From Pirellula staleyi DSM 6068 (GTDB lineage: Bacteria; Planctomycetota; Planctomycetia; Pirellulales; Pirellulaceae), in the NCBI GenBank assembly GCA_945900945.1, contig CAMDKL010000045.1, positions 1 to 37,532 on the forward strand: DNA of 37,532 bases. The letters run 5' to 3'. The stretch's first letter is position 1, and each line of letters starts with the position of its first letter. Both the position numbers and the translations under genes were made by a program. A model generated the notes under the pieces. The model was given only the letters and a program-made list of their open reading frames with translations, was not told the DNA's origin and did no database searches. Of the stretch, positions 22,635-35,947 are shown piece by piece.

Positions 22635-22837
22635 CCTGTTTAGCCTTGAAATAGAAATCGCATAAATACTTAGTCTATCCTTTGAACCGAGAAAATCATC
22701 CGTGCGAGCATTAAGTAGCTAAGACTACTGCTTAAGTATTCTAAAGTAAGCGGCAATTCAAAACTACCGTCGCTGGTTTGCGATTGACGAATCTATGGGA
22801 ATGGTGACACTCGAGACCAGTCACTCGGTGGCATGCT

Positions 22838-23044
22838 TGCGGTGTTTATGACTCGGGCATGTAAAACAGGGAACTTCGGTGCAATTCCGCGACGGCCCAG
22901 CCGCTGTAACCAATCGTTCGATCGCAAGGTCGTTCACCTCAAGCTTGCTCTTTTGCCATTGCCTCGTCGGTTCCCTATCTTAGGGAATCCGCGAGACGAG
23001 AAGGCTTAGCTGGGGTTTTATTGGAAGTCAGAAGACCTACCGAG
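22838..23044 (+). promoter_or_regulatory. Cobalamin (B12) riboswitch
   Basis: The conserved core cagggaacttcggtgcaatt followed by ccgcgacggcccagccgctgtaac (22867-22910) fits the B12-riboswitch consensus GGGAA..GGTG..aTTCC..GaC-GCCC-GCC-CTGTaac. A 3' element ggaagtcagaagacc then taccg (23023-23042) matches GAAGxCAGxAGACCTxCC. CGGT at 22840-22843 can pair with ACCG at 23039-23042 to close P1. It lies directly in front of the ExbB-like gene, so adenosylcobalamin probably represses the cluster by translation or transcription control; the switching structure was not resolved. Confidence 0.9.
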
Positions 23045-23125
23045 CGATTAGGTCATCGATGCATTCTCTTGGGTGGAATGGTTGGCCAAGGTCCTGTTTC
23101 CATCTCTATACTATCGATACAAACG

Positions 23126-23587
23126 ATGCCACTTGAGAGTGTCTTGTTTTCCATTTCCCAAGGTTTCCTCTGGCCAGTTACGTTGCTGGTATTGGCGGCG
23201 TTCGCCTTTTCGCTTTTGAGCCTCGGCGGTTTTGTAGTTGAATGGTACAGGCGAGCAAAAGCGCCAGGCAAACTTTTGATCCTTCCACTGGCCCCCACCC
23301 GTTCCATCGAGTCACTCGAGTTGCTTATTTTAAGGGAGTTAGAGGGATTGCGTCTATGCAGTCGAATTGCCCCCATGCTCGGCCTTGTCGCAACAATGAT
23401 CCCGATGGGACCCGCACTCATTTCCGCATCGTCGGGCGCATCGCAGGGTGTGGCCCAAAATTTGGCTCCCGCCTTTGCCGCAGTCATTATCGCGCTTGTT
23501 TCTGCTTCCATCACATTCTGGATTCATACAGTTCGAAGACGTTGGCTGTTGACCGAGTTGCATCAACTGCTTGAACAACGATCATGA
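23126..23587 (+). CDS. MotA/TolQ/ExbB-like proton channel protein
   Basis: 153 residues from ATG 23126 (MPLESVLFSISQGFLWPV), the start that fits relatives; ATG 23078 is an alternative adding 16 residues, and a TTG at 23021 lies in the riboswitch. Helix 1 is at about 7-35. The segment RIAPMLGLVATMIPMGPAL, then NLAPAFAAVIIALVSASITF, carries the ExbB/TolQ signature: the G-LGT-type turn appears as MLGLVATMIPMGPA, and LAPAFAAVIIALV forms helix 3. Family members use proton flow to energise outer-membrane or periplasmic work. The gene overlaps DUF2149 by ATGA and is the first gene behind the riboswitch, so it probably serves the CobN-like protein downstream. Confidence 0.82.
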   Translation: MPLESVLFSISQGFLWPVTLLVLAAFAFSLLSLGGFVVEWYRRAKAPGKLLILPLAPTRSIESLELLILRELEGLRLCSRIAPMLGLVATMIPMGPALISASSGASQGVAQNLAPAFAAVIIALVSASITFWIHTVRRRWLLTELHQLLEQRS

Positions 23588-23952
23588 ACCACCCTCCCCC
23601 TACCAATGACATTTCGCCTCGTGTTCGGATGCGTCGTTCGTCCATTCTTGACGGTGACGACGAAGACCCCATGCTATCGACCATCAACCTCGTCGACGTC
23701 TTCCTCGTAGTGGTAGGCGTTTTGTTAATCGTCGTGATTCAAGATCCATTGCGACCGTTCGTAGACGACAGCATCACGATCATTCGCAACGAGGGAAAAC
23801 CAAACATGGAGATCATTGTCAAAGAAGGACAAAAAATCACTAAATTTCAATCCGTGGGTGCTTCTGTCAAAGGCGACGGCGAAAAAGCCGGAACCGCCTA
23901 CCGACTGAAAGATGGCAGCATGGTCTACGTCCCGGCCACAACAGAAGAATAA
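23584..23952 (+). CDS. DUF2149 protein, membrane-anchored partner of ExbB-like protein
   Basis: 122 residues. The family features are present: EDPMLSTINLVDVFLVVVGV at about 27-46, the single transmembrane helix to about 52, and the C-terminal domain GKPNMEIIVKEGQKI, then KGDGEKAGTAYRLKDGSMVY. This ExbD-like topology (one TM helix, extracytoplasmic domain) suggests that it pairs with the ExbB-like protein. The start overlaps the previous stop as ATGA, so translation is coupled. Genes of this family recur beside CobN-like proteins in corrinoid or heme uptake loci. Its stop is one base from the ATG of the CobN-like gene. Confidence 0.85.
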   Translation: MNHPPPTNDISPRVRMRRSSILDGDDEDPMLSTINLVDVFLVVVGVLLIVVIQDPLRPFVDDSITIIRNEGKPNMEIIVKEGQKITKFQSVGASVKGDGEKAGTAYRLKDGSMVYVPATTEE

Positions 23953-23953
23953 C

Positions 23954-26900
23954 ATGGAAAACAAAACTCAAATCGCCAGAGATACCGTAGCAACGATGCT
24001 ATTCGTGCTTGGACTTTGGCAAATGCCAAGTGCCTGCGTTGCAGCTCAAAAAGACTCCGAAGCGAGAGTGGTCGTTCTTTCCACGTACCTAGTATCTCCA
24101 GCGAGGAATGCAAGGCTCGAACAAGCGGCCAAGGACGCAAACCTCAGCATCGCCATTCTTGCCGTAGAGCCATTGACTCCAGAAGAGCTTGAGCAGGCAC
24201 TTCAAAACTGCCGAATGCTGTTGCTCGACACGCCACACATCAGTGTTGCCAAGAGCATTGCGGCTCGATTGGGAGAAACGATCATTCAATCGGCACCAAA
24301 ATATGTCGTGATCGGCGAGTTTGGGCTCGTCGCAAAAAATGAGGCAACGGCGGTAGAACCCCTCAAGTCGGAAGCCGGAGTCCCTGCAGCTTGGGCGCAG
24401 CGTCTACGCGAGTATTGGCGATTCGGTGGCGATGAAAATACGCGGCTGGCAATGCAAGCTCTCCAAGCGGATTTTTCGGAGGTAGGTTTGCCTCCAGCCA
24501 TCTCCATGCCGCTTCAAGGTTACTACCATCCTCGTTGGCCCAAACTGGTGACCGATTCGACCGACGTTGTCAACAGACTGCGGGGCGATCCATCCAAGCA
24601 AAACCCGCCCACCAACTCCCTGGCAGCAAACGCGACCAAAACAGCCTCAGGCGGTGTCGTTGCCATCGTGGTCAACAGCGCAGTCTTTACTTCCGACGAT
24701 ACGAACTGGCTAGACCACATGATTGAAGCCCTTGAAAAACGGGGCATGCAGGCCTTCGCCTTCTTTGGACCCAGGCAAAACGCCAACCTGGTTTACGACA
24801 TGACTCGGAATCCAAACGAACCCAATCGATCGATAGCCAGCGTGCTCATCAATGCGGCGCTGGTTTTCAAGCCGAACGAACGCAAAGCAGAGTTGGACCG
24901 AATCGGAATTCCTGTTTTGCAAACGCTCCCGTCGCTTGCGATGAATCAAGAGCAATGGCAAGCCAGCGCCGAAGGCTTAGCGCTGTCCGATATTTCCTAT
25001 TACTACACTTCGAGCGAATTAGCGGGCATGATTGATCCTTTGCTGATATCCGCGCGAGACTCCAAGTCAGGTAGCCTCCAACCGATAGACTCTCAAATAG
25101 ATGCGGTCGCAGCCAAAGCAGTTTCCTTATTTCAAATGCAACACTCGCCTCCCGCCGATCGCCAACTCGCCGTGATGGTTTACAACTACCCTCAAGGTGA
25201 GAACAACTTCGGTGCATCATTTCTTAACGTCCCAAAAAGTCTTCAGAATATTTTCTCTGCGTTAAAGAGCTCTGGCTACGAAACCGATACGGTGGACGCA
25301 GACTCGATTACCATTCAGTTGAGGCAGACGCTCCGTGCCTTTTACCGGCCTGATTCGATGAGTTCGCTGCTGGAACAGGATCTTGCGGCGACTTTTCCCT
25401 TGGCCAAGTACCTCGCATGGTTTCGGCAACTTCCCCGTGAGACTCAAGAACGAATTGAAGCGTATTGGGGTCCCCCAGAAGCTTCGTCGTTTTCGAACCG
25501 AGAATTGCAGCCAAGTCAGACTGACGATGCCATGCAATTTGTTGTTCCGCGGGTTGTATTTGGCAGGGTGGTGGTAATGCCGCAACCACTGCGGCACCCA
25601 GTCAACGCTAGCGTCGATTCGGAAAAAAAGAAAATCCGAATACAACACAAATCCAAAGTTCCGCTGAGCCACCAGTACCTCGCCACCTATCTCTGGATTC
25701 GCAATGAGTGGCATGCTCATGCGGTAATTCATCTTGGTACACACGGAACGTTGGAATGGAGTCCGGGCAAGGAACGGGGGTTGGCTACGCTCGACGATCC
25801 CTATCTCGCCTTGGGCGATCTACCTAATATCTACCCATACATCATGGATAATCTAGGGGAAGCAATCACTGCCAAGCGCCGCGGTCGCGCAACCATTTTG
25901 AGCCATTTGACTCCGATGTTTTCACCTGCTGGGTTTCGACCTGGATTACACGAAATGCATGATCTCATGCACGATTGGGAAACGGTCGCACCAGGGCCCG
26001 TTCGAAAAGAAGTGGAGTCGCGATTGCTGGCCTATTTCGTAGAACACCAACTCCATCGAGATTTGAATTGGACCGAATCTGAAATTGCCTCCAACTTCGA
26101 GGGCTTCCTAGAACTTTTGCACCCATATCTCGATGATATCGCGCAATCCGCCCAGCCTCAAGGTCTGGCGGCCTTCGGTGAAGTGCCTAGTCCAGAGAGA
26201 CGTTTCGGCATGATCATGCAAATGCTTCGCAAACCCATGATTGAAGCCCTGGGTGAAGACATCGATGAAGTCTTTCTGTTGGATGCCGAGAAAGTGATGA
26301 AGTCGCGTCCGGCACGTTGGCTTCAAGTTGCATTGCAGGATTCTGTTGCAGCCAGCAAACTGGATCTCCGCAAGCAGGATGTGTTGAACAACTCGAGCAA
26401 GTCTTCGGTCCCAAACCGCGCAGAGGCAAAGGTCTTAGATCCTGACGTTTTACTCTCGCTTGCGAAACGCGCACAACAACTCGAAATCTCCCTATCGAAA
26501 AACGACGAGCTTGAAAGTCTAATGGCGGCTTTGAACGGTCAACACATCGCTTCCAGTTATGGAGGAGATCCCGTGCGTAATCCGGAGAGCCTACCTACCG
26601 GCAAAAATCTCTATGGCTTTGATCCTAGCCGAGTTCCAACCCGTCAAGCATGGGATATCGGCGTTGCGGCTTTTGATGCATGGGTCAAGGAGTACAAGGA
26701 ATCGCACGAGGACAAGTGGCCTGAGAAAATTGCCTACTCACTTTGGGCAGGTGAGACCATGCGGCACCAGGGCATCATGGAGGCTCAAGTACTCTTCGCG
26801 ATGGGAATCAAACCGACTTGGGATGACAGCGGACGAGTCAACGGCCTGGAAACCCTTACGAGCAACGATCTCGGGCGACCTCGCGTGGATGTGCTCCTCA

Positions 26901-28135
26901 GTGTCACGGGTTCGTATCGAGATCAATTCCCATTGGTTATGCAGTGGATAGATCAAGCTGTTCAGCAAACGGCTAGGCTTGAGGAATCCGAAAACTTTGT
27001 CGCTAGCCACACCAAGGTATTAGAGGAGTCTTTCCGATCGCAAGGAATGTCCGAGAGCGATGCGAAAAAATTCGCCACCGTTCGCGTTTTTTCGAATGAG
27101 GCAGGCGGATACGGAACTGGATTGAGTGATGCGACTTTAGCAACGGATGTTTGGCAGAATGACTCCAAGCAGGACGCGGCCCAAGAAATGTCACAGTTGT
27201 TTGTCCAACGGATGGGACATGCGTTTGGGACCGGTCTCAATGGCGTTGCGGCGGGCCAAGTATTTGCTGAGCACTTGAAGCAAGTAGATGCGGCAATACT
27301 GTCTCGTACTTCGCATACCTATGGTGTTCTCACCAGCGATGATCCGTTCCAGTACCTCGGTGGCTTGTCCCTTGCGATAAGGGAGTTGACAGGAAAAGCA
27401 CCCTCGCTGTTCGTCCAAAATCTGCGGGACGAAAGCGAAGTATCGACCGATCGTGCAAGTGTTTCGCTCGCAAAGGAAGTCAACTCTCGCTACCTGCATC
27501 CTCAGTGGATCAAAGCCCAACAAGCAGAGGGATATAGCGGTACTTTACAAGTCCTCAAGTCCGTGCAGTTCCTTTGGGGATGGCAGGTAACTGCACCGGA
27601 GACCATTCGCCAAGATCAATGGCAATCGTTCCATGATGTCTACTTGCGGGACCGGTATGGATTAGGAACACAAAAATGGATGCGAGAGAACAATGAGGCG
27701 GCCCTGGCACAAATGCTAGAACGCATGCTCGATGCCGTCCGTTTGGACTATTGGCAACCGGATGCGGAAACGCGTCAAGAACTGGTTCGTACTTATCGCG
27801 AAGCTGCGAATCGCTCCAATCTCATTGAACGCAATATAGCAGTAACGCGATTCGCGGAAATGGAGTCAATCAAGTGGACGGCGGATGCGAAATCAAGTGA
27901 CACTTTCACCCAAAGTATGCCCGAATCCTCGGCTTCCATGGAGGCATTCATTCCCTCGCTGACGAAATTTACTGCGGAGGATCCCCAATCTGCGACCCGT
28001 GTGTCTGGCCTCAAGTTGGAAGTCGCCCCTCAGAACAGGCTCAATTTCAACTTGAGATACCAGTGGTTGCCATGGGGAATCATTCCGTTGTTCCTCCTAA
28101 TGGGTGCTTGGCGGGCCGCGCGACGTATTCGTTGA
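23954..28135 (+). CDS. Exported CobN/Mg-chelatase-like protein (HmuS-like), B12-regulated
   Basis: 1393 residues from ATG 23954; the frame is open from 23912, but this start gives a clear signal peptide (MLFVLGLWQMPSACVAA, cleavage near 31). The large chelatase-subunit fold is shown by VIHLGTHGTLEWSPGKERGL (H593, H597, E601), YPYIMDNLGEAITAKRRGRA and ESLPTGKNLYGFDP. Near the C-terminus WGIIPLFLLMGAW (about 1374-1386) is a TM helix followed by RAARRIR, so the protein should be anchored with its bulk outside the cytoplasm. Cytoplasmic CobN inserts cobalt with CobST, and no CobS or CobT is here. The Bacteroidetes HmuS, also CobN-like and linked to ExbB and DUF2149 genes, removes metal from heme. 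B12 control suggests a role in corrinoid uptake, cobalt removal or cobalt capture. Confidence 0.88.
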   Translation: MENKTQIARDTVATMLFVLGLWQMPSACVAAQKDSEARVVVLSTYLVSPARNARLEQAAKDANLSIAILAVEPLTPEELEQALQNCRMLLLDTPHISVAKSIAARLGETIIQSAPKYVVIGEFGLVAKNEATAVEPLKSEAGVPAAWAQRLREYWRFGGDENTRLAMQALQADFSEVGLPPAISMPLQGYYHPRWPKLVTDSTDVVNRLRGDPSKQNPPTNSLAANATKTASGGVVAIVVNSAVFTSDDTNWLDHMIEALEKRGMQAFAFFGPRQNANLVYDMTRNPNEPNRSIASVLINAALVFKPNERKAELDRIGIPVLQTLPSLAMNQEQWQASAEGLALSDISYYYTSSELAGMIDPLLISARDSKSGSLQPIDSQIDAVAAKAVSLFQMQHSPPADRQLAVMVYNYPQGENNFGASFLNVPKSLQNIFSALKSSGYETDTVDADSITIQLRQTLRAFYRPDSMSSLLEQDLAATFPLAKYLAWFRQLPRETQERIEAYWGPPEASSFSNRELQPSQTDDAMQFVVPRVVFGRVVVMPQPLRHPVNASVDSEKKKIRIQHKSKVPLSHQYLATYLWIRNEWHAHAVIHLGTHGTLEWSPGKERGLATLDDPYLALGDLPNIYPYIMDNLGEAITAKRRGRATILSHLTPMFSPAGFRPGLHEMHDLMHDWETVAPGPVRKEVESRLLAYFVEHQLHRDLNWTESEIASNFEGFLELLHPYLDDIAQSAQPQGLAAFGEVPSPERRFGMIMQMLRKPMIEALGEDIDEVFLLDAEKVMKSRPARWLQVALQDSVAASKLDLRKQDVLNNSSKSSVPNRAEAKVLDPDVLLSLAKRAQQLEISLSKNDELESLMAALNGQHIASSYGGDPVRNPESLPTGKNLYGFDPSRVPTRQAWDIGVAAFDAWVKEYKESHEDKWPEKIAYSLWAGETMRHQGIMEAQVLFAMGIKPTWDDSGRVNGLETLTSNDLGRPRVDVLLSVTGSYRDQFPLVMQWIDQAVQQTARLEESENFVASHTKVLEESFRSQGMSESDAKKFATVRVFSNEAGGYGTGLSDATLATDVWQNDSKQDAAQEMSQLFVQRMGHAFGTGLNGVAAGQVFAEHLKQVDAAILSRTSHTYGVLTSDDPFQYLGGLSLAIRELTGKAPSLFVQNLRDESEVSTDRASVSLAKEVNSRYLHPQWIKAQQAEGYSGTLQVLKSVQFLWGWQVTAPETIRQDQWQSFHDVYLRDRYGLGTQKWMRENNEAALAQMLERMLDAVRLDYWQPDAETRQELVRTYREAANRSNLIERNIAVTRFAEMESIKWTADAKSSDTFTQSMPESSASMEAFIPSLTKFTAEDPQSATRVSGLKLEVAPQNRLNFNLRYQWLPWGIIPLFLLMGAWRAARRIR

Positions 28136-29306: not shown

Positions 29307-30374
29307 ATGCGATCGAATCGTGAATCCGGTTTTACACTTGTCGAACTCTTGGTCGTAATTGCGATCATCGGAATTTTAGTCGGGTTGTTATTGCCCGCTG
29401 TTCAGGCTGCTCGCGAGGCGGCACGGCGTATGCAGTGTACCAACAACCTGAAACAACTCGGAATTGCAATGCATAATCACCATGACACTCTCAAACGCCT
29501 GCCGCAATTGAACGAGACAAATGGAGCCAATCGAAACGCCAATCCAGACGGAAACGAGAACCGAAATAGCGGTTTGATGCGCATCTTGCCTTATATGGAA
29601 CAAAGCGCGATTTACAATATTTTGTCCCAGCCGGGAACTTACCTTCAGGGAACGACAGTTAAAAACACCTTGCCATTCGGACCCGTTCGGGATCGCAACT
29701 ATGCTCCTTACCGAGCCCAAGTCCCAGGCTTTCTATGTCCCTCCAATCCTCCTGGAACATTCATTTGGAATGATGATGGGAAGCGCAGCTACGCCTGCTC
29801 CGTCGGAGACTCCATCACGAACAACCATTCGAACGCAGAGAATCGCGGACCGTTTGGCAGATCGATCAAAACCGGTCTGAGTTCGCTTACCGATGGTACG
29901 AGCAACACGATCCTCATGGCCGAACGTGCCATTGGCTCGGGCGATAAACGAAGTGCCAAAGGCTACTTTGCTAACAACGTCGCTGGCCTCAATGTTTCGC
30001 CGATTAACTGCTTAGTCAAGGCCAGCGCAGGCAGATATTTTCCGACTGCGTCCGTCATGGAGGCCAGGGCTGTTGGAGTTCAATGGTACGACGGATATCC
30101 TGCATTCACCGGTGTATGTACGATTTTGCCACCCAATAGCGCCTCTTGCAGCAATGAGAACTGGGGGGATGCATGGGGTGTTTTTAGCGCTAGCAGTTTT
30201 CATACAGGCGGGGTTAATATTCTAATGGCTGATGGCTCGGTGCACTTCGTTAGCGACTCAATCGATACTGGCAACCTGACAGTTGCACCACCGACTAGCG
30301 GTGTCAGCCCCTATGGGGTTTGGGGAGCATTGGGATCTATGGGTGGTGGCGAAGTCGCCTCACTTCCTAACTAA
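29307..30374 (+). CDS. DUF1559 prepilin-like protein (type II secretion/pilin N-terminus)
   Basis: 355 residues. The N-terminus RESGFTLVELLVVIAIIGIL is a class III prepilin signal with cleavage between G and F and a Glu at +5, followed by a single hydrophobic helix. AVQAAREAARRMQCTNNLKQ and LGIAMHNHHD are the standard DUF1559 continuation, and FHTGGVNILMADGSVHFVSD near residue 300 is the H-x9-DG C-terminal motif. These proteins are abundant in planctomycetes and are thought to be pseudopilins or surface proteins. It is followed by a lipoprotein gene typical of such loci. Confidence 0.95.
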   Translation: MRSNRESGFTLVELLVVIAIIGILVGLLLPAVQAAREAARRMQCTNNLKQLGIAMHNHHDTLKRLPQLNETNGANRNANPDGNENRNSGLMRILPYMEQSAIYNILSQPGTYLQGTTVKNTLPFGPVRDRNYAPYRAQVPGFLCPSNPPGTFIWNDDGKRSYACSVGDSITNNHSNAENRGPFGRSIKTGLSSLTDGTSNTILMAERAIGSGDKRSAKGYFANNVAGLNVSPINCLVKASAGRYFPTASVMEARAVGVQWYDGYPAFTGVCTILPPNSASCSNENWGDAWGVFSASSFHTGGVNILMADGSVHFVSDSIDTGNLTVAPPTSGVSPYGVWGALGSMGGGEVASLPN

Positions 30375-31162: not shown

Positions 31163-34100
31163 ATGATTTTGTCTACTTCGACTGCGATACGACCCAATGT
31201 CCTTGTCTCCCGATCAGCGATATTCTTCGTTCTGATGTGTTTGCATTGGATGGATTCACCGTTTGCGATCGCAGACGACCCAGATCGAAAAGCACTTGAG
31301 TTTTTTGAATCCAAGATCCGTCCTGTTTTGGTACAAGAGTGCTACGGTTGCCACTCGCAAGAAGCTGACAAGAAAGGGAAGCTACGCGGTTCGTTGCTTC
31401 TGGATTCTCGCGATGGGGCAAAGAAAGGCGGAGATACCGGGCCAGCGGTTGTACCCAGCGAAGTCGACAAGAGCCTAATGATCAGCGCAATCCGTCATCA
31501 AGACTTTGAGATGCCGCCCAAAGGCAAGCTATCGGATGCAATCATTGCGGACTTCGAGAAATGGATTGCAAGCGGGGCTGTCGATCCACGCGAAAGCAAA
31601 GCGGTTGCGCCAGCTCGAGTGATCGATTGGGAACAAGGAAGAACGCACTGGGCATTTCAACCCCTTTTAAAGCAAGTTCCACTCCCTAAATTAGTTCATA
31701 CAGCACTTTCCAATCCCATCGATCAATTCATTCGTCGAGAACAAGTTGCCAAGGGATTAAACCAAAATGCAATCGCCGATAAGCGCACGCTGATTCGTCG
31801 GGCCTGGATCGATCTGCTTGGTTTGCCTCCCTCGCCCGATGAAATGGCGACCTGGATGACTCGCTTGACACCTAGTGGCGATTCAACCTATGCGGGCGTC
31901 GACCAGCGTGCATGGTGGCAGTTGATCGACCACCTACTCGATAGTCCTCGCTATGGAGAACGCTGGGCAAGGCACTGGATGGATGTTGCTCGCTTTGCCG
32001 AATCGCACGGGTACGAACAAGACTACGATCGCCCCAACGCATATTACTATCGGGATTTTCTCATTCGCGCTTTTAATTCCGACATGCCTTACGACCAATT
32101 CGTTCGTTGGCAGTTGGCTGGCGACGAACTGGCACCGGAGGATCCGTTGGCTTGGATGGCGACCGGCTTTCTCGGCGCTGGAGCGTTTCCGACTCAGCTC
32201 ACCGAAACGGAATTCGAGTCAGCCCGCTACGATGAATTGGATGATATGGTCGCGACGACAGGAGTTACCTTTCTTGGATTATCGGTCGGCTGTGCCCGAT
32301 GTCATGACCATAAATTCGATCCGATTACATCGAAGGAATACTATGGCCTTGTGTCGACGTTCGCATCGGTAATCCGCTGCGAAAAAGCGTTCGATCTCTC
32401 CCCAGATTCCAATCGTGCGATTCGCAATTCTCATGAAGAATCCCTTGCTGACCTGCGGCGACAATTGAACGAACTGGATAACGGTTTGCCCCGGCGATTG
32501 GTAGATTGGATCAAAACCGTTCGCGATGAATCGGAATGGCGAAATGAGTGGTCGACGCTGTCAGGAAAGTTGGAGTCGATCGGTAAAACGAAATTTGTCC
32601 CTCAGTCAGATGGTAGCTTTCTCGCGACAGGAAGGCCGCCAGCCATGGACAAGGTCACTGTCCTCGTTGAGATGAAAGATACGCTTCAGTTCGCAGGCAT
32701 TCGAGTCGAAGCACTTAGCGATGAATCGCTACCGAACCGTGGGCCAGGTCGAGCGGACAATGGGAACTTTGTACTCAGCAACATCGAAGTGTTCGTTGAC
32801 ACTCCCGAAAAACCCGATTCGGTGCCGATTCCATTGGTAAAGGCGATCGCGACGCATCAGCAGAATGAAGCGTCTCTATCCGTTCAATCGTCGATCGATT
32901 CGGATCCAATCAGCGGATGGGCCGTCGATGGCCAGATTGGGCGAGATCAGGCGGCAGCCTTCTTTTCGGACCAAGTGAGATCGATCGAGAAGGGCAGCAA
33001 ACTCCGTTGTGTCTTGTCCTTCCAGCATTCCAACCCAAAACATGCAATTGGAAAATTCCGATTGTCTTTGACATCCAACTCCGATGCACGTGTCCAGGTT
33101 GGACTCTCTGGACCGTCACCGGAGTTGGTGAAGCGACTGGGGCAGTTGCGCGAGAGGGTAATGCAATTGCCACAGGGGGAATCGGGGTCCGTCACCGCAT
33201 TGATTCAAAAAATTGGCGAATCACCCGAGGATTGGAAGGAAACGATTCTTTGGTTTAGTCAGAAGCAGTCCGATTGGCGTGAGTTGATGGAGAAGATAGA
33301 AAAGAATGAAAAGGCTGGCCCGCCGGTCAAGCTGACGACGATCCAAATTGCAAGCGAAGGATTACGGCCGATGAAGCATCATGCGGACGACCGGGGCTAT
33401 CCTCATTTTTATCCGCAGGTCCACGTTCTCAGGCGAGGCGATGTCCATCAAAAAGGCGATGTCGCTTCTTCCGGACCGCTCATCGTGCTGGCCTCCAAAA
33501 GTCAGCCAATCGATTGGGCCCCAAAAGATGCGGATCGTAAGGCCTCGGTGCCTTCGTTTCGACGATCGCGATTAGCCGACTGGATCACCGATCCTGACCA
33601 AGGATCGGGTGCCTTGACGGCGCGTGTTATGCTAAATCGCCTTTGGCAGCATCATTTTGGTCGAGGCATCGTCGGTACGCCGAACGACTTCGGCACTTCT
33701 GGAGACAGACCATCCCATCCTGAACTGCTCGAATGGCTCGCCAAAGAACTGATCGATGGTGATTGGAAACTCAAGAGGATGCATCGCTTGATCATGACGA
33801 GTAACACGTATATGCAATCGAGTGCCGCGACACGCCCCGAAGCGGAACCGGTAAATGCGAACCCACAACTTATTGATCCAGAGAATCGAACATGGTGGCG
33901 GCGTTATCCTCGTCGATTAGAAGCCGAAGCGCTTCGCGATGCGCTGTTGTCTACCTCGGGGTTGTTGGATGTCTCAATGTATGGTCCGGGAACTTTGGAT
34001 GAAAACATGCGACGGCGCAGTGTCTACTTCTTTATCAAGCGGAGCCAGTTGATCCCATCGATGATGCTGTTCGATTGGCCGGAGCATCTGGTCAGTATTG

Positions 34101-34459
34101 GCCAGCGCTCGTCGACGACCATCGCTCCACAGGCTTTAATGTTGATGAATGGGAAATTGGGCAGGCAGTCGGCCGAAGCGATCGCTGCAAAAATGGTTTC
34201 TCAGACTTCGGCTATCGACATCGATGTGCGTTCTGCAATTACCAAGGCTTACCAAATTGCATACCAGCGAGACGCATCCCCTATCGAGCACCACGTTGGA
34301 GAGCAGTTTCTAGGCCAGTTTGTGATCACCCGTTCTACAACTCCATCGAACCCTGGCGAGCCAACGGGTCCGATGAAGGCGTCGGATATACCGCTTGATT
34401 GCTGGGCTGATTACTGCCAGGCCCTATTGAGCGCCAACGAATTTATCTTTGTTGATTGA
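31163..34459 (+). CDS. PSD1/DUF1549-DUF1553 protein with planctomycete cytochrome-c-like domain
   Basis: 1098 residues. After a signal peptide (to about 38, FAIADD) comes a PSCyt1-type domain with C60YGCH64. DUF1549 follows (RRAWIDLLGLPPSPDEM, then YGERWARHWMDVARFAESHG) and contains a second CxxCH at 377-381 (CARCHDHKFDPI). The C-terminal DUF1553 has LADWITDPDQGSGALTARVM, RLWQHHFGRGIVGTPNDFG and RRSVYFFIKRSQLIPSMM. Two CxxCH motifs suggest heme c and periplasmic redox work. In planctomycetes this family is nearly always followed by DUF1501, as here after 15 bases. The biochemical reaction is unknown; links to polysaccharide degradation have been suggested. No ribosome site is evident at 31163. 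Confidence 0.92.
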   Translation: MILSTSTAIRPNVLVSRSAIFFVLMCLHWMDSPFAIADDPDRKALEFFESKIRPVLVQECYGCHSQEADKKGKLRGSLLLDSRDGAKKGGDTGPAVVPSEVDKSLMISAIRHQDFEMPPKGKLSDAIIADFEKWIASGAVDPRESKAVAPARVIDWEQGRTHWAFQPLLKQVPLPKLVHTALSNPIDQFIRREQVAKGLNQNAIADKRTLIRRAWIDLLGLPPSPDEMATWMTRLTPSGDSTYAGVDQRAWWQLIDHLLDSPRYGERWARHWMDVARFAESHGYEQDYDRPNAYYYRDFLIRAFNSDMPYDQFVRWQLAGDELAPEDPLAWMATGFLGAGAFPTQLTETEFESARYDELDDMVATTGVTFLGLSVGCARCHDHKFDPITSKEYYGLVSTFASVIRCEKAFDLSPDSNRAIRNSHEESLADLRRQLNELDNGLPRRLVDWIKTVRDESEWRNEWSTLSGKLESIGKTKFVPQSDGSFLATGRPPAMDKVTVLVEMKDTLQFAGIRVEALSDESLPNRGPGRADNGNFVLSNIEVFVDTPEKPDSVPIPLVKAIATHQQNEASLSVQSSIDSDPISGWAVDGQIGRDQAAAFFSDQVRSIEKGSKLRCVLSFQHSNPKHAIGKFRLSLTSNSDARVQVGLSGPSPELVKRLGQLRERVMQLPQGESGSVTALIQKIGESPEDWKETILWFSQKQSDWRELMEKIEKNEKAGPPVKLTTIQIASEGLRPMKHHADDRGYPHFYPQVHVLRRGDVHQKGDVASSGPLIVLASKSQPIDWAPKDADRKASVPSFRRSRLADWITDPDQGSGALTARVMLNRLWQHHFGRGIVGTPNDFGTSGDRPSHPELLEWLAKELIDGDWKLKRMHRLIMTSNTYMQSSAATRPEAEPVNANPQLIDPENRTWWRRYPRRLEAEALRDALLSTSGLLDVSMYGPGTLDENMRRRSVYFFIKRSQLIPSMMLFDWPEHLVSIGQRSSTTIAPQALMLMNGKLGRQSAEAIAAKMVSQTSAIDIDVRSAITKAYQIAYQRDASPIEHHVGEQFLGQFVITRSTTPSNPGEPTGPMKASDIPLDCWADYCQALLSANEFIFVD

Positions 34460-34474
34460 TTAGGAGAACGAATC

Positions 34475-35947
34475 ATGTTTACACGACGTGCGATGCTGAG
34501 GCAGGCGGGCGGTGGTTTCGGAATGATTGGCTTGCTCAATTTGCTCCACGACCAGGGGCTGATCATCCCCGAGTCGATTGCTGGCGCAAGCGAACAGAGT
34601 GGGCTGGGCGAGCGAGCACTCAATCCCCTTGCGGCTCAACCATCGCATTTCCAGCCAAAAGCTAAGCGTGTGATTTGGATTTTTGTAAACGGTGGTCCAA
34701 GTCAAGTTGATACGTGGGACTACAAACCGGCTCTCACGCAGTATCACGACAAGAGCATCAAGGAGTTTGCACCCGATTTTACGAACACGACCGGCTTTTT
34801 TAAGAACGCAGTCGGCAACCTGATGAAATCACCTTTCCATTTTACCCCTCGCGGAGAATGCGGGAAAATGGTGTCGTCCATTTTTCCGAAGCTTGGCGAG
34901 CATGTGGACAAGATGACATTTATACATTCGGGGTATACCGAATCCAATAATCACTCACCAGCGCTTTTTGCTATGAATACGGGAATGGCACGCATGGGGT
35001 TTCCATGTGCTGGATCTTGGGTCACGTATGGTTTAGGGAGTGAAAATCGCAATTTGCCTGGCTTTGTGGTGATGAGCGATCCTAAGGGGCGTGGACTACC
35101 CAAAGGCCATGCCGCAAACTGGAGCGCTGGTTTCTTGCCGGGTGTCTATCAAGGAACCTATCTGAGGCCGACCGGACAAGCGATCGATAATCTCGTGCCA
35201 CCATCAAACTTGAATGAGCGAGTTCAACGAACACAGCTTGATTTACTCAAGCAACTTAACAATGCGCACTTGCTACTGCACCCTCATGAAAACGACATGG
35301 CATCTCGAATCGAATCGTTTGAATTGGCTTATCGTATGCAGTCGGTTGCACCAGAAATACTGGATGTGGAGAAAGAATCGGCATCGATTCAGCAGCTCTA
35401 CGGAATCGGGCAAGAGCGTTGCGACCATTTTGCAAGACAGTGTTTGATGGCTCGGCGTCTAGTGGAATCTGGAGTCCGGTTTGTCCAAATCTACTCGGGA
35501 GGAATGGAAAACCAACGGTCATGGGATGGGCATAACGATATCGAAGGCAACCACCAACAGTTTGCGGATGAGACCGACCAGCCGGTAGCGGGCTTACTTA
35601 CGGATTTGGCTCAAAGAGGCTTACTATCCGATACGTTGGTAATTTGGTGCGGCGAGTTCGGGCGATTGCCGATCGCACAAACGGGCGCAAAGCCAGGAAG
35701 AGACCACAATCCACACTGTTTTTCGGCATGGATGGCAGGTGGTGGAGTGAAGGGGGGCTTTACCTATGGAGAGTCCGATGAAATAGGATACAAAGCCGCG
35801 ATCGATCGAATGCATTTGAACGATTTTCATGCGACCATTTTGCACCTTCTAGGACTGGACCACACCAAACTCACTTACCGTTACAACGGGCGTAATTTCC
35901 GATTGACCGACGTTGCTGGCGACGTCATTCACAAGATTATTGTTTAG
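34475..35947 (+). CDS. DUF1501 protein, Tat-exported
   Basis: 490 residues, start preceded by AGGAG eight bases upstream. The N-terminus FTRRAMLRQAGGGFGMIG is a twin-arginine signal. Family blocks in order: VIWIFVNGGPSQVDTWDYKP, HSGYTESNNHSPALFAMNTG, GSWVTYGLGSENRNLPGFVV, FELAYRMQSVAPEILD, SGVRFVQIYSGG, DTLVIWCGEFGRLP, GRDHNPHCFSAWMAGGGVKG and HLLGLDHTKLTYRYNGRNF. The fold is related to alkaline phosphatases/sulfatases. It is almost certainly a partner of the PSD1 gene just upstream, as in other planctomycetes. It also gives the template showing how much is missing from the fragment at 4145-4969. Confidence 0.95.
   Translation: MFTRRAMLRQAGGGFGMIGLLNLLHDQGLIIPESIAGASEQSGLGERALNPLAAQPSHFQPKAKRVIWIFVNGGPSQVDTWDYKPALTQYHDKSIKEFAPDFTNTTGFFKNAVGNLMKSPFHFTPRGECGKMVSSIFPKLGEHVDKMTFIHSGYTESNNHSPALFAMNTGMARMGFPCAGSWVTYGLGSENRNLPGFVVMSDPKGRGLPKGHAANWSAGFLPGVYQGTYLRPTGQAIDNLVPPSNLNERVQRTQLDLLKQLNNAHLLLHPHENDMASRIESFELAYRMQSVAPEILDVEKESASIQQLYGIGQERCDHFARQCLMARRLVESGVRFVQIYSGGMENQRSWDGHNDIEGNHQQFADETDQPVAGLLTDLAQRGLLSDTLVIWCGEFGRLPIAQTGAKPGRDHNPHCFSAWMAGGGVKGGFTYGESDEIGYKAAIDRMHLNDFHATILHLLGLDHTKLTYRYNGRNFRLTDVAGDVIHKIIV

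Follow-up and report, generated by a model that had tools for sequence, protein, structure and literature searches.

A cobalamin-riboswitch-led ExbB/DUF2149/CobN-like operon of Pirellula staleyi as a candidate extracytoplasmic corrinoid chelatase system

What a cobaltochelatase-like protein might do outside the cytoplasm, under a cobalamin riboswitch and beside a protein of the ExbB family, is the question raised by an operon on contig CAMDKL010000045.1 of Pirellula staleyi DSM 6068 (assembly GCA_945900945.1), of which positions 1 to 37,532, read on the forward strand, are referred to here as the window. The operon comprises the following elements.

22816-23058, plus strand: cobalamin riboswitch (RF00174) heading the operon (cmscan 58.8 bits, gathering score 31.5, E 3e-12)
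likely 23126-23587, plus strand: ExbB/MotA/TolQ-family membrane protein, 153 aa (PF01618, 23.9 bits, cut-off 22.9)
23584-23952, plus strand: DUF2149 protein, 122 aa (PF09919, 90.2 bits)
23954-28135, plus strand: CobN-like class I chelatase, 1393 aa, predicted to be exported and membrane-anchored (PF02514, 958.6 bits)

The favoured answer, to which a probability of about 50% is given, is that the three genes encode a corrinoid chelatase working outside the cytoplasm, in which ExbB/DUF2149 substitutes for CobST, and that they are part of a B12-salvage operon. The link of the trio to corrinoids is strong, and the B12 control and corrinoid role proposed in the initial annotation are supported by the riboswitch, by the operon context in two relatives and by a riboswitch-led plasmid copy. 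The Rfam match is slightly wider than the element first delimited by eye (22838-23044), and the tight packing described at the same time is confirmed, as the DUF2149 start overlaps the ExbB stop in an ATGA and the CobN-like gene begins 1 base past the DUF2149 stop. The longest frame of the ExbB-like gene, whose PF01618 match lies just above the cut-off, opens with TTG at 23021, and 23078 is a further alternative start, while ATG 23126 is taken as the likely one because homologues begin near that residue. The riboswitch, whose action we infer, probably permits expression of the trio once cellular B12 falls.

Two genomes from the family of the window genome (G360 and G380) each have one riboswitch-led operon of 12 genes in the order DUF1559-CobQ-CobO-CobU-BtuFCD-CbiB-CobD/BluB-ExbB-DUF2149-CobN, the trio standing at its end, 9.6-9.7 kb downstream of the riboswitch. 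The first nine genes have the same order as in the window genome and are 45-83% identical to its genes, with ExbB, DUF2149 and CobN directly after them, and the window genome has this 12-gene set divided into two parts with one riboswitch each. A scan for riboswitches in the order-level stretches (20 loci) was empty, the riboswitch lying beyond the stretch in L236 and L237 (9.6-9.7 kb upstream), which may hold for the other 18 as well. The betaproteobacterial plasmid CP099607.1 (Comamonadaceae) carries riboswitch-ExbB-DUF2149-CobN alone, the riboswitch (40.2 bits) preceding ExbB by 89 bases. Its CobN is 54.9% identical to that of the window over 1380 aa, which makes it the closest of the compared sequences from other families, and the GC content of the plasmid is 75% against 52% for the window; the module has therefore crossed phyla together with its switch. 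Plasmid pGLOV01 (pSZ77) of T. lovleyi contains tandem riboswitches followed by TonB receptor-DUF2162-ExbB-DUF2149-CobN-ExbB-ExbD-TonB-receptor, thus a separate ExbB-ExbD-TonB besides ExbB-DUF2149, and ten loci of Brocadiaceae have the order riboswitch-TonB receptor-CobN-ExbB-DUF2149 (placed from coordinates). In L138 there is almost no upstream sequence, so the absence of a riboswitch there means little.

The host genome (G000; 6.47 Mb, 313 contigs, 99.96% complete) was found to encode 2 cobalamin riboswitches, 1 CobN family protein and 1 DUF2149 protein. Its other riboswitch (contig C194, locus L004) heads, in this order, DUF1559, CobQ, CobO, CobU, BtuF-, BtuC-, BtuD- and CbiB-like genes and a CobD/BluB-like fusion, where CobQ, CobO and CobU are identified by NCBIfam and the rest by Pfam, applied to this copy or to the homologous genes of G380, and by gene order; with this gene set the host looks like a corrinoid salvager. 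Genome-wide there are 0 matches to CobT (the member of the CobST pair searched for), 0 to CbiC (the ring enzyme searched for) and 0 to the plug domain of TonB receptors, and the host therefore probably scavenges corrinoids. These results agree with the earlier remarks that CobS/CobT are not nearby, as far as CobT is concerned, and that the cluster is devoid of a TonB-dependent receptor, none being found in the operon either. A B12-binding domain matches over the cut-off in one frame of 1236 aa, a size which we take to fit MetH, and a second match lies below the cut-off.

The PF02514 domain spans the CobN-like protein (model positions 2-1089 of 1090), and the protein reaches NCBIfam NF004644, cobaltochelatase subunit CobN, with 1310 bits (cut-off 1248). 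Its N-terminus is signal-peptide-like and its C-terminus has a hydrophobic segment with a positive tail, so that by hydropathy it is likely exported and C-terminally anchored. The signal peptide and transmembrane anchor of the initial annotation stand insofar as both ends are hydrophobic, but the C-terminal score (1.31) is barely above the threshold of 1.3, which was chosen after the values were seen (the next exported-type value is 1.76; six cytoplasmic-type rows have 0.51 or less), and the N-terminal score is non-discriminating, as 2 of the 6 cytoplasmic-type rows pass too.

In the FastTree phylogeny (local supports; 92 of 99 rows kept after dropping the archaeal, out-of-register rows L101, L109, L110, L127 and L129, and L085 and L094), a branch with support 100 divides 83 exported-type rows from 9 cytoplasmic CobN/BchH rows, and the window clusters with L252, L236 and L237 (support 100). 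The program flagged long branches, namely BchH, and S. meliloti together with Halorussus CobN, as well as an uneven composition in 48 rows, L252, L256 and L257 among them. The comparison with CobN, BchH and HmuS called for earlier thus sets the window apart from the cytoplasmic proteins, and none of the results that the initial annotation named as speaking against it (no Rfam element; a place with cytoplasmic CobN together with CobST and no signal peptide) was obtained. That an ordinary cytoplasmic CobN has been mistaken for an exported one, as the NCBIfam name and the weak C-terminal score might suggest, is extremely improbable given its side of the supported branch, the hydrophobicity of both ends and the 0 matches to CobT and CbiC in the host.

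The active site separates the protein from HmuS, which has His-538 and His-1209 in its active site, the latter within LSLDHxxEFMGG (PMC12583661). H597 of the window protein aligns with His-538, a residue common to the whole superfamily, and HLGTHG at 593-598 fits HFG(T/A)HG. At the second position the HmuS motif is not found in the aligned window protein, which has LTSDDPFQYLGG at 1126-1137 with D1130 in the place of His-1209, so that His-1209 and Glu-1212 of HmuS are represented by Asp and Gln. The window motif TSDDPFQ is, as judged from the alignment, CobN-type as in cobaltochelatases, those of cytoplasmic CobN being DSDDYFQ (7c6o) and DSDDYYQ (9uk9), whereas HmuS has SLDHVYE. An HmuS-like dechelatase, which would act outside the cytoplasm to free tetrapyrroles of cobalt or some other metal, would be in keeping with HmuS (9d26) as the nearest solved structure by E-value and with the occurrence of the same two partners, ExbB/DUF2149, in a hmu operon, but these two replacements speak against it, and the destruction of corrinoids would be wasteful in a system expressed in B12 shortage in a genome that gave no match to the ring-synthesis gene tested. 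This alternative, lowered as a main reading by motif and tree, is regarded as quite unlikely, and the close functional analogy to HmuS drawn in the initial annotation fails on the missing motif and on the placement of the window in another class of the tree.

The 92 rows fall into the motif classes DD (35, two of them cytoplasmic CobN), LDH (27), NKY (12), NHH (10), VDH (6) and other (2), which were defined after seeing the alignment and largely track clades. Among 61 loci with a usable CobN row (of 70 examined; nine duplicates, fragments and CobN-less loci were dropped), with riboswitch-led status assigned from coordinates, 16/21 DD-type loci are riboswitch-led against 0/40 others (Fisher P 1e-10), or 7/11 against 0/40 with Brocadiaceae counted as one (P 2.9e-6). 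Adding L080 and L081 (DD, with a riboswitch on another contig only) gives 16/23 against 0/40; with L256 also counted as riboswitch-linked the table becomes 16/23 against 1/40 (P 1e-8), and 7/13 against 1/40 with Brocadiaceae as one (P 8e-5). These statistics are descriptive, given the relatedness of the rows and the post hoc definition of the classes. Separately, the NKY (or NRY) rows constitute a class of exported CobN of their own (12 rows: L098, L102, L118, L134, L233, L235, L244, L251 and four others), with DUF1559 in 8 of the 12 loci, and its sister is the NHH class (10 rows); both are neither HmuS- nor CobN-type.

The ExbB/DUF2149 pair usually keeps company with CobN. Of 199 planctomycete genomes, 20 have DUF2149 and 27 a CobN family protein, all 20 being within the 27 (hypergeometric P 6e-22, of descriptive value as the genomes are related), and CobN stands beside DUF2149 in 18 of the 20 loci fetched, the other two lying at contig ends of G049. 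Among the named DUF2149 loci more widely, which are the best 80 of 476 and to which the following counts refer, ExbB adjoins DUF2149 in 79, archaea included, and CobN lies within 3 kb of DUF2149 in 63, or in 37 of the 43 with 6 kb on both sides. CobN is present in 15 of the 23 archaeal loci, none of which has a TonB-receptor match; 28 of the 56 bacterial loci contain a TonB receptor, and one further locus is of unassigned domain. The usual core is CobN-ExbB-DUF2149 with the receptor optional, and from the 79/80 adjacency, archaea included, the pair therefore probably serves the CobN-like protein rather than a receptor. The energising of a TonB receptor was considered as the main role of the pair and was lowered by the archaeal loci and T. 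lovleyi. By profile comparison (hhalign), the ExbB-like set of these loci matches canonical ExbB with a probability of 95.5%. The DUF2149 protein has one predicted transmembrane helix carrying Asp38, found in 38/38 aligned rows (Runella L255 has Glu), followed by a small beta domain that is predicted to lie outside the cytoplasm, and its low-confidence model has a helix at 29-53 and five strands.

In the proposed mechanism, B12 shortage would let the riboswitch release expression of the trio, and the CobN-like protein would be exported and held by its C-terminal helix on the outer side of the inner membrane, where it would process scavenged corrin rings before their import by BtuFCD. The most likely chemistry would be cobalt insertion or metal exchange in a ring that has reached the a,c-diamide stage and is still incomplete. 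The steps of CobO, CobQ, CbiB/CobD, CobU and BluB follow cobalt insertion in the corrin pathway, and insertion at that stage is favoured because these enzymes act after it; insertion or exchange is favoured also because the ring-synthesis gene that was tested is missing and expression is expected when B12 is scarce. In this scheme ExbB/DUF2149 would replace the CobST/ChlID motor and reset the chelatase by means of the proton gradient, a source of energy proposed because ATP is not known to be available outside the cytoplasm. We infer the corrin substrate, the direction of metal transfer and the motor role.

The ground for the motor hypothesis is the CobN-ExbB-DUF2149 core as compared with cytoplasmic-type loci, where the chelatase gene adjoins an AAA+ partner in 4 of 6 (L058 by NCBIfam, three by BLAST cluster). 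Further support is offered by HmuS, which in recombinant form alone performs 1-2 turnovers (instability, missing cofactors and product inhibition being the possible causes given by the authors; PMC12583661), and by P. gingivalis, where the inner-membrane fraction is reported to be stimulatory and HmuT/U/V are not excluded (PMC13227078). Published accounts assign HmuUV the role of energising the receptor (PMC12583661, PMC10100974). The general form of the hypothesis, in which ExbB/DUF2149 is the proton-motive-force motor of extracytoplasmic class I tetrapyrrole chelatases, HmuU/HmuV would drive HmuS instead of the receptor, and the window would hold the cobalt/corrin version, is tentative and on balance doubtful.

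Several findings weigh against the reading of the trio as a proton-driven corrinoid chelatase. HmuS works in vitro without ATP (PMC12583661), and a motor may therefore be unnecessary for catalysis. The Thr pair of the last ExbB helix is missing in 7/7 aligned ExbBs of the window clade (for example AAV for TTV) and retained in 6/7 other DUF2149-type rows, which makes proton flow unsure. The model of DUF2149 has a pTM of 0.25 and at this low confidence gives no fold match in the PDB at E 0.001, and homology between DUF2149 and ExbD is undetected by hhalign (0.2%). CobN is not found in 6 of the 43 DUF2149 loci with room for it (four archaeal, two acidobacterial). DD-type proteins are without a leading riboswitch in 5/21 loci (7/23 with L080 and L081), while Azospirillum L256, whose row neighbours the window clade, is not DD (STDHPF) and has a riboswitch just downstream of the trio, and the riboswitch-led L160 also holds AAA+-type chelatase subunits (BLAST cluster). 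A DD-type CobN lies inside a nickel-hydrogenase cluster in Runella, and DD is therefore no proof of corrin.

As to the loci without CobN, NosD-like beta-helix proteins adjoin DUF2149 in two of the four archaeal ones with room, and archaeal ExbB/DUF2149 pairs without CobN occur with this family in L122, L123, L128, L154, L159 and L164 (assigned by Pfam for members of L122, L154 and L159 and by BLAST cluster for the others); the pair may have other clients too. The Runella locus, on a plasmid (L255, 749-15007), has TonB receptor-(urease accessory)-ExbB-DUF2149-CobN within a HypABF/HypCDE cluster, which suggests a nickel version of the trio.

Another metal (nickel, zinc) or a metal chelate might accordingly be what the window trio handles, with B12 control secondary. 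Homologous trios in the hyp nickel cluster of Runella and near nikR in Azospirillum would fit this, as would the Zur-regulated CobN-like/DUF2149 operon of P. aeruginosa (PMC9431628, PMC4542158), yet a riboswitch leads the genes in the window, in the plasmid copy and in both relatives from the family, and the operon of the relatives contains corrinoid genes plus DUF1559, so that this explanation is rated very unlikely. An uptake device, in which ExbB/DUF2149 energises the passage of corrinoids to BtuF, with the CobN-like protein as a periplasmic corrinoid carrier that retains the fold without the chelatase reaction, agrees with the trio sharing an operon with BtuFCD in the two relatives and with the host genome, where no TonB-receptor plug match was found and another route across the outer membrane is therefore needed. 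It sits poorly with the retention of H597 and the CobN-type DD motif and with the presence of the trio core in archaea, which are not known to have an outer membrane, and we consider it unlikely. The extracytoplasmic corrinoid chelatase remains the preferred reading.

Two further features lie downstream of the operon in the window.

29307-30374: DUF1559 gene with a pilin-type methylation motif
31163-35947: DUF1549/DUF1553 cytochrome-type and DUF1501 protein genes, a typical planctomycete pair

Contamination as the origin of the contig is rejected, since planctomycete-type families (DUF1549/1553, PSCyt1, DUF1501, DUF1559) are present. In the class of the window a riboswitch often heads a pilin-like DUF1559 gene, as in 13 of 20 loci (L004, at 1020-2078; L169-L172, L176, L178, L179, L260-L264), which were drawn non-randomly from high-scoring riboswitch matches, L260 and L261 being picked for leading a trio, and in which DUF1559 is assigned by BLAST only in L260 and L262-L264 (over 65 aa in L262). 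Elsewhere in the phylum, DUF1559 is first in 0 of 27 riboswitch loci (third or fourth in two; two are too short) and a TonB receptor is first in 11. DUF1559 may replace BtuB; a literature search for DUF1559 together with cobalamin found no paper among the matches listed, which were open-licence papers. The riboswitches of the class relatives L174, L175 and L177 head secreted-looking proteins with a PEP-CTERM-like end (by eye), and of the 20 DUF2149 loci at order level, 13 contain DUF1559 and 12 of these also a CobN match.

A widespread gene set, mostly annotated as 'CobN', is hereby joined to corrinoid salvage through operon evidence, and the active-site mark may tell heme-type from corrin/cobalt-type exported chelatases. 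A sharp test of what HmuU/HmuV-like pairs drive is now possible. The locus also bears on how B12 is acquired without detectable TonB-receptor plug domains, in a host whose salvage operon begins with a pilin-like DUF1559 gene.

Compared with known systems, the window shares with HmuS and the hmuYRSTUV operon of Bacteroidota a CobN-like protein of exported type, the ExbB-like and DUF2149 proteins that accompany it, and the active-site counterpart of His-538. It differs in that its CobN-like gene is accompanied only by ExbB and DUF2149 of that six-gene set, without HmuY, HmuR or HmuT, in being riboswitch-led, and in the motif and tree class described above. HmuS further has a methionine-rich insertion and a heme site formed by Met-79/His-254 (PMC12583661). 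With CobNST the window protein has in common the CobN domain over its whole length and an SDD-type motif, but it is predicted to be exported, adjoins ExbB/DUF2149 and belongs to a separate branch, and CobT and CbiC were not found in its host. The PA1922-PA1925 operon of P. aeruginosa, which is under Zur control (PMC4542158, PMC9431628, PMC8531726), likewise combines CobN-like, proton-channel-family and DUF2149 genes by annotation, but it has zinc control and a TonB receptor, as compared by description rather than by sequence. As for the ExbB/ExbD energiser, its ExbB-family subunit is present in the window, and DUF2149 has a transmembrane Asp, with an ExbD profile match of 0.2%.

A further likeness, a riboswitch before an exported-type CobN-like gene with ExbB/DUF2149, is to loci already described. 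BtuS is a third CobN type credited to Rodionov 2003 (PMC6460266) and is reported in Methanosarcina barkeri (PMC10846266), riboswitch-led hmu-like operons occur in Bacteroides (B. fragilis; PMC10100974), and the pSZ77 CobN of T. lovleyi, without CobST, has been tied to cobalamin metabolism (PMC3403914). The BtuS/hmu-like loci and pSZ77 have CobN-like and ExbB-type genes and B12 control like the window, but they have TonB receptors, whereas the window operon has none and the plug domain gave 0 matches in its host; moreover, the window-type trio is joined to a salvage operon in relatives. No paper on ExbB/DUF2149 as a chelatase motor, or on the planctomycete operon, was found among the open-licence papers listed as matches. 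Riboswitch-led hmu-like/BtuS loci are thus in print, and what is new in the present system is the receptor-free form, the link to a salvage operon and the active-site split.

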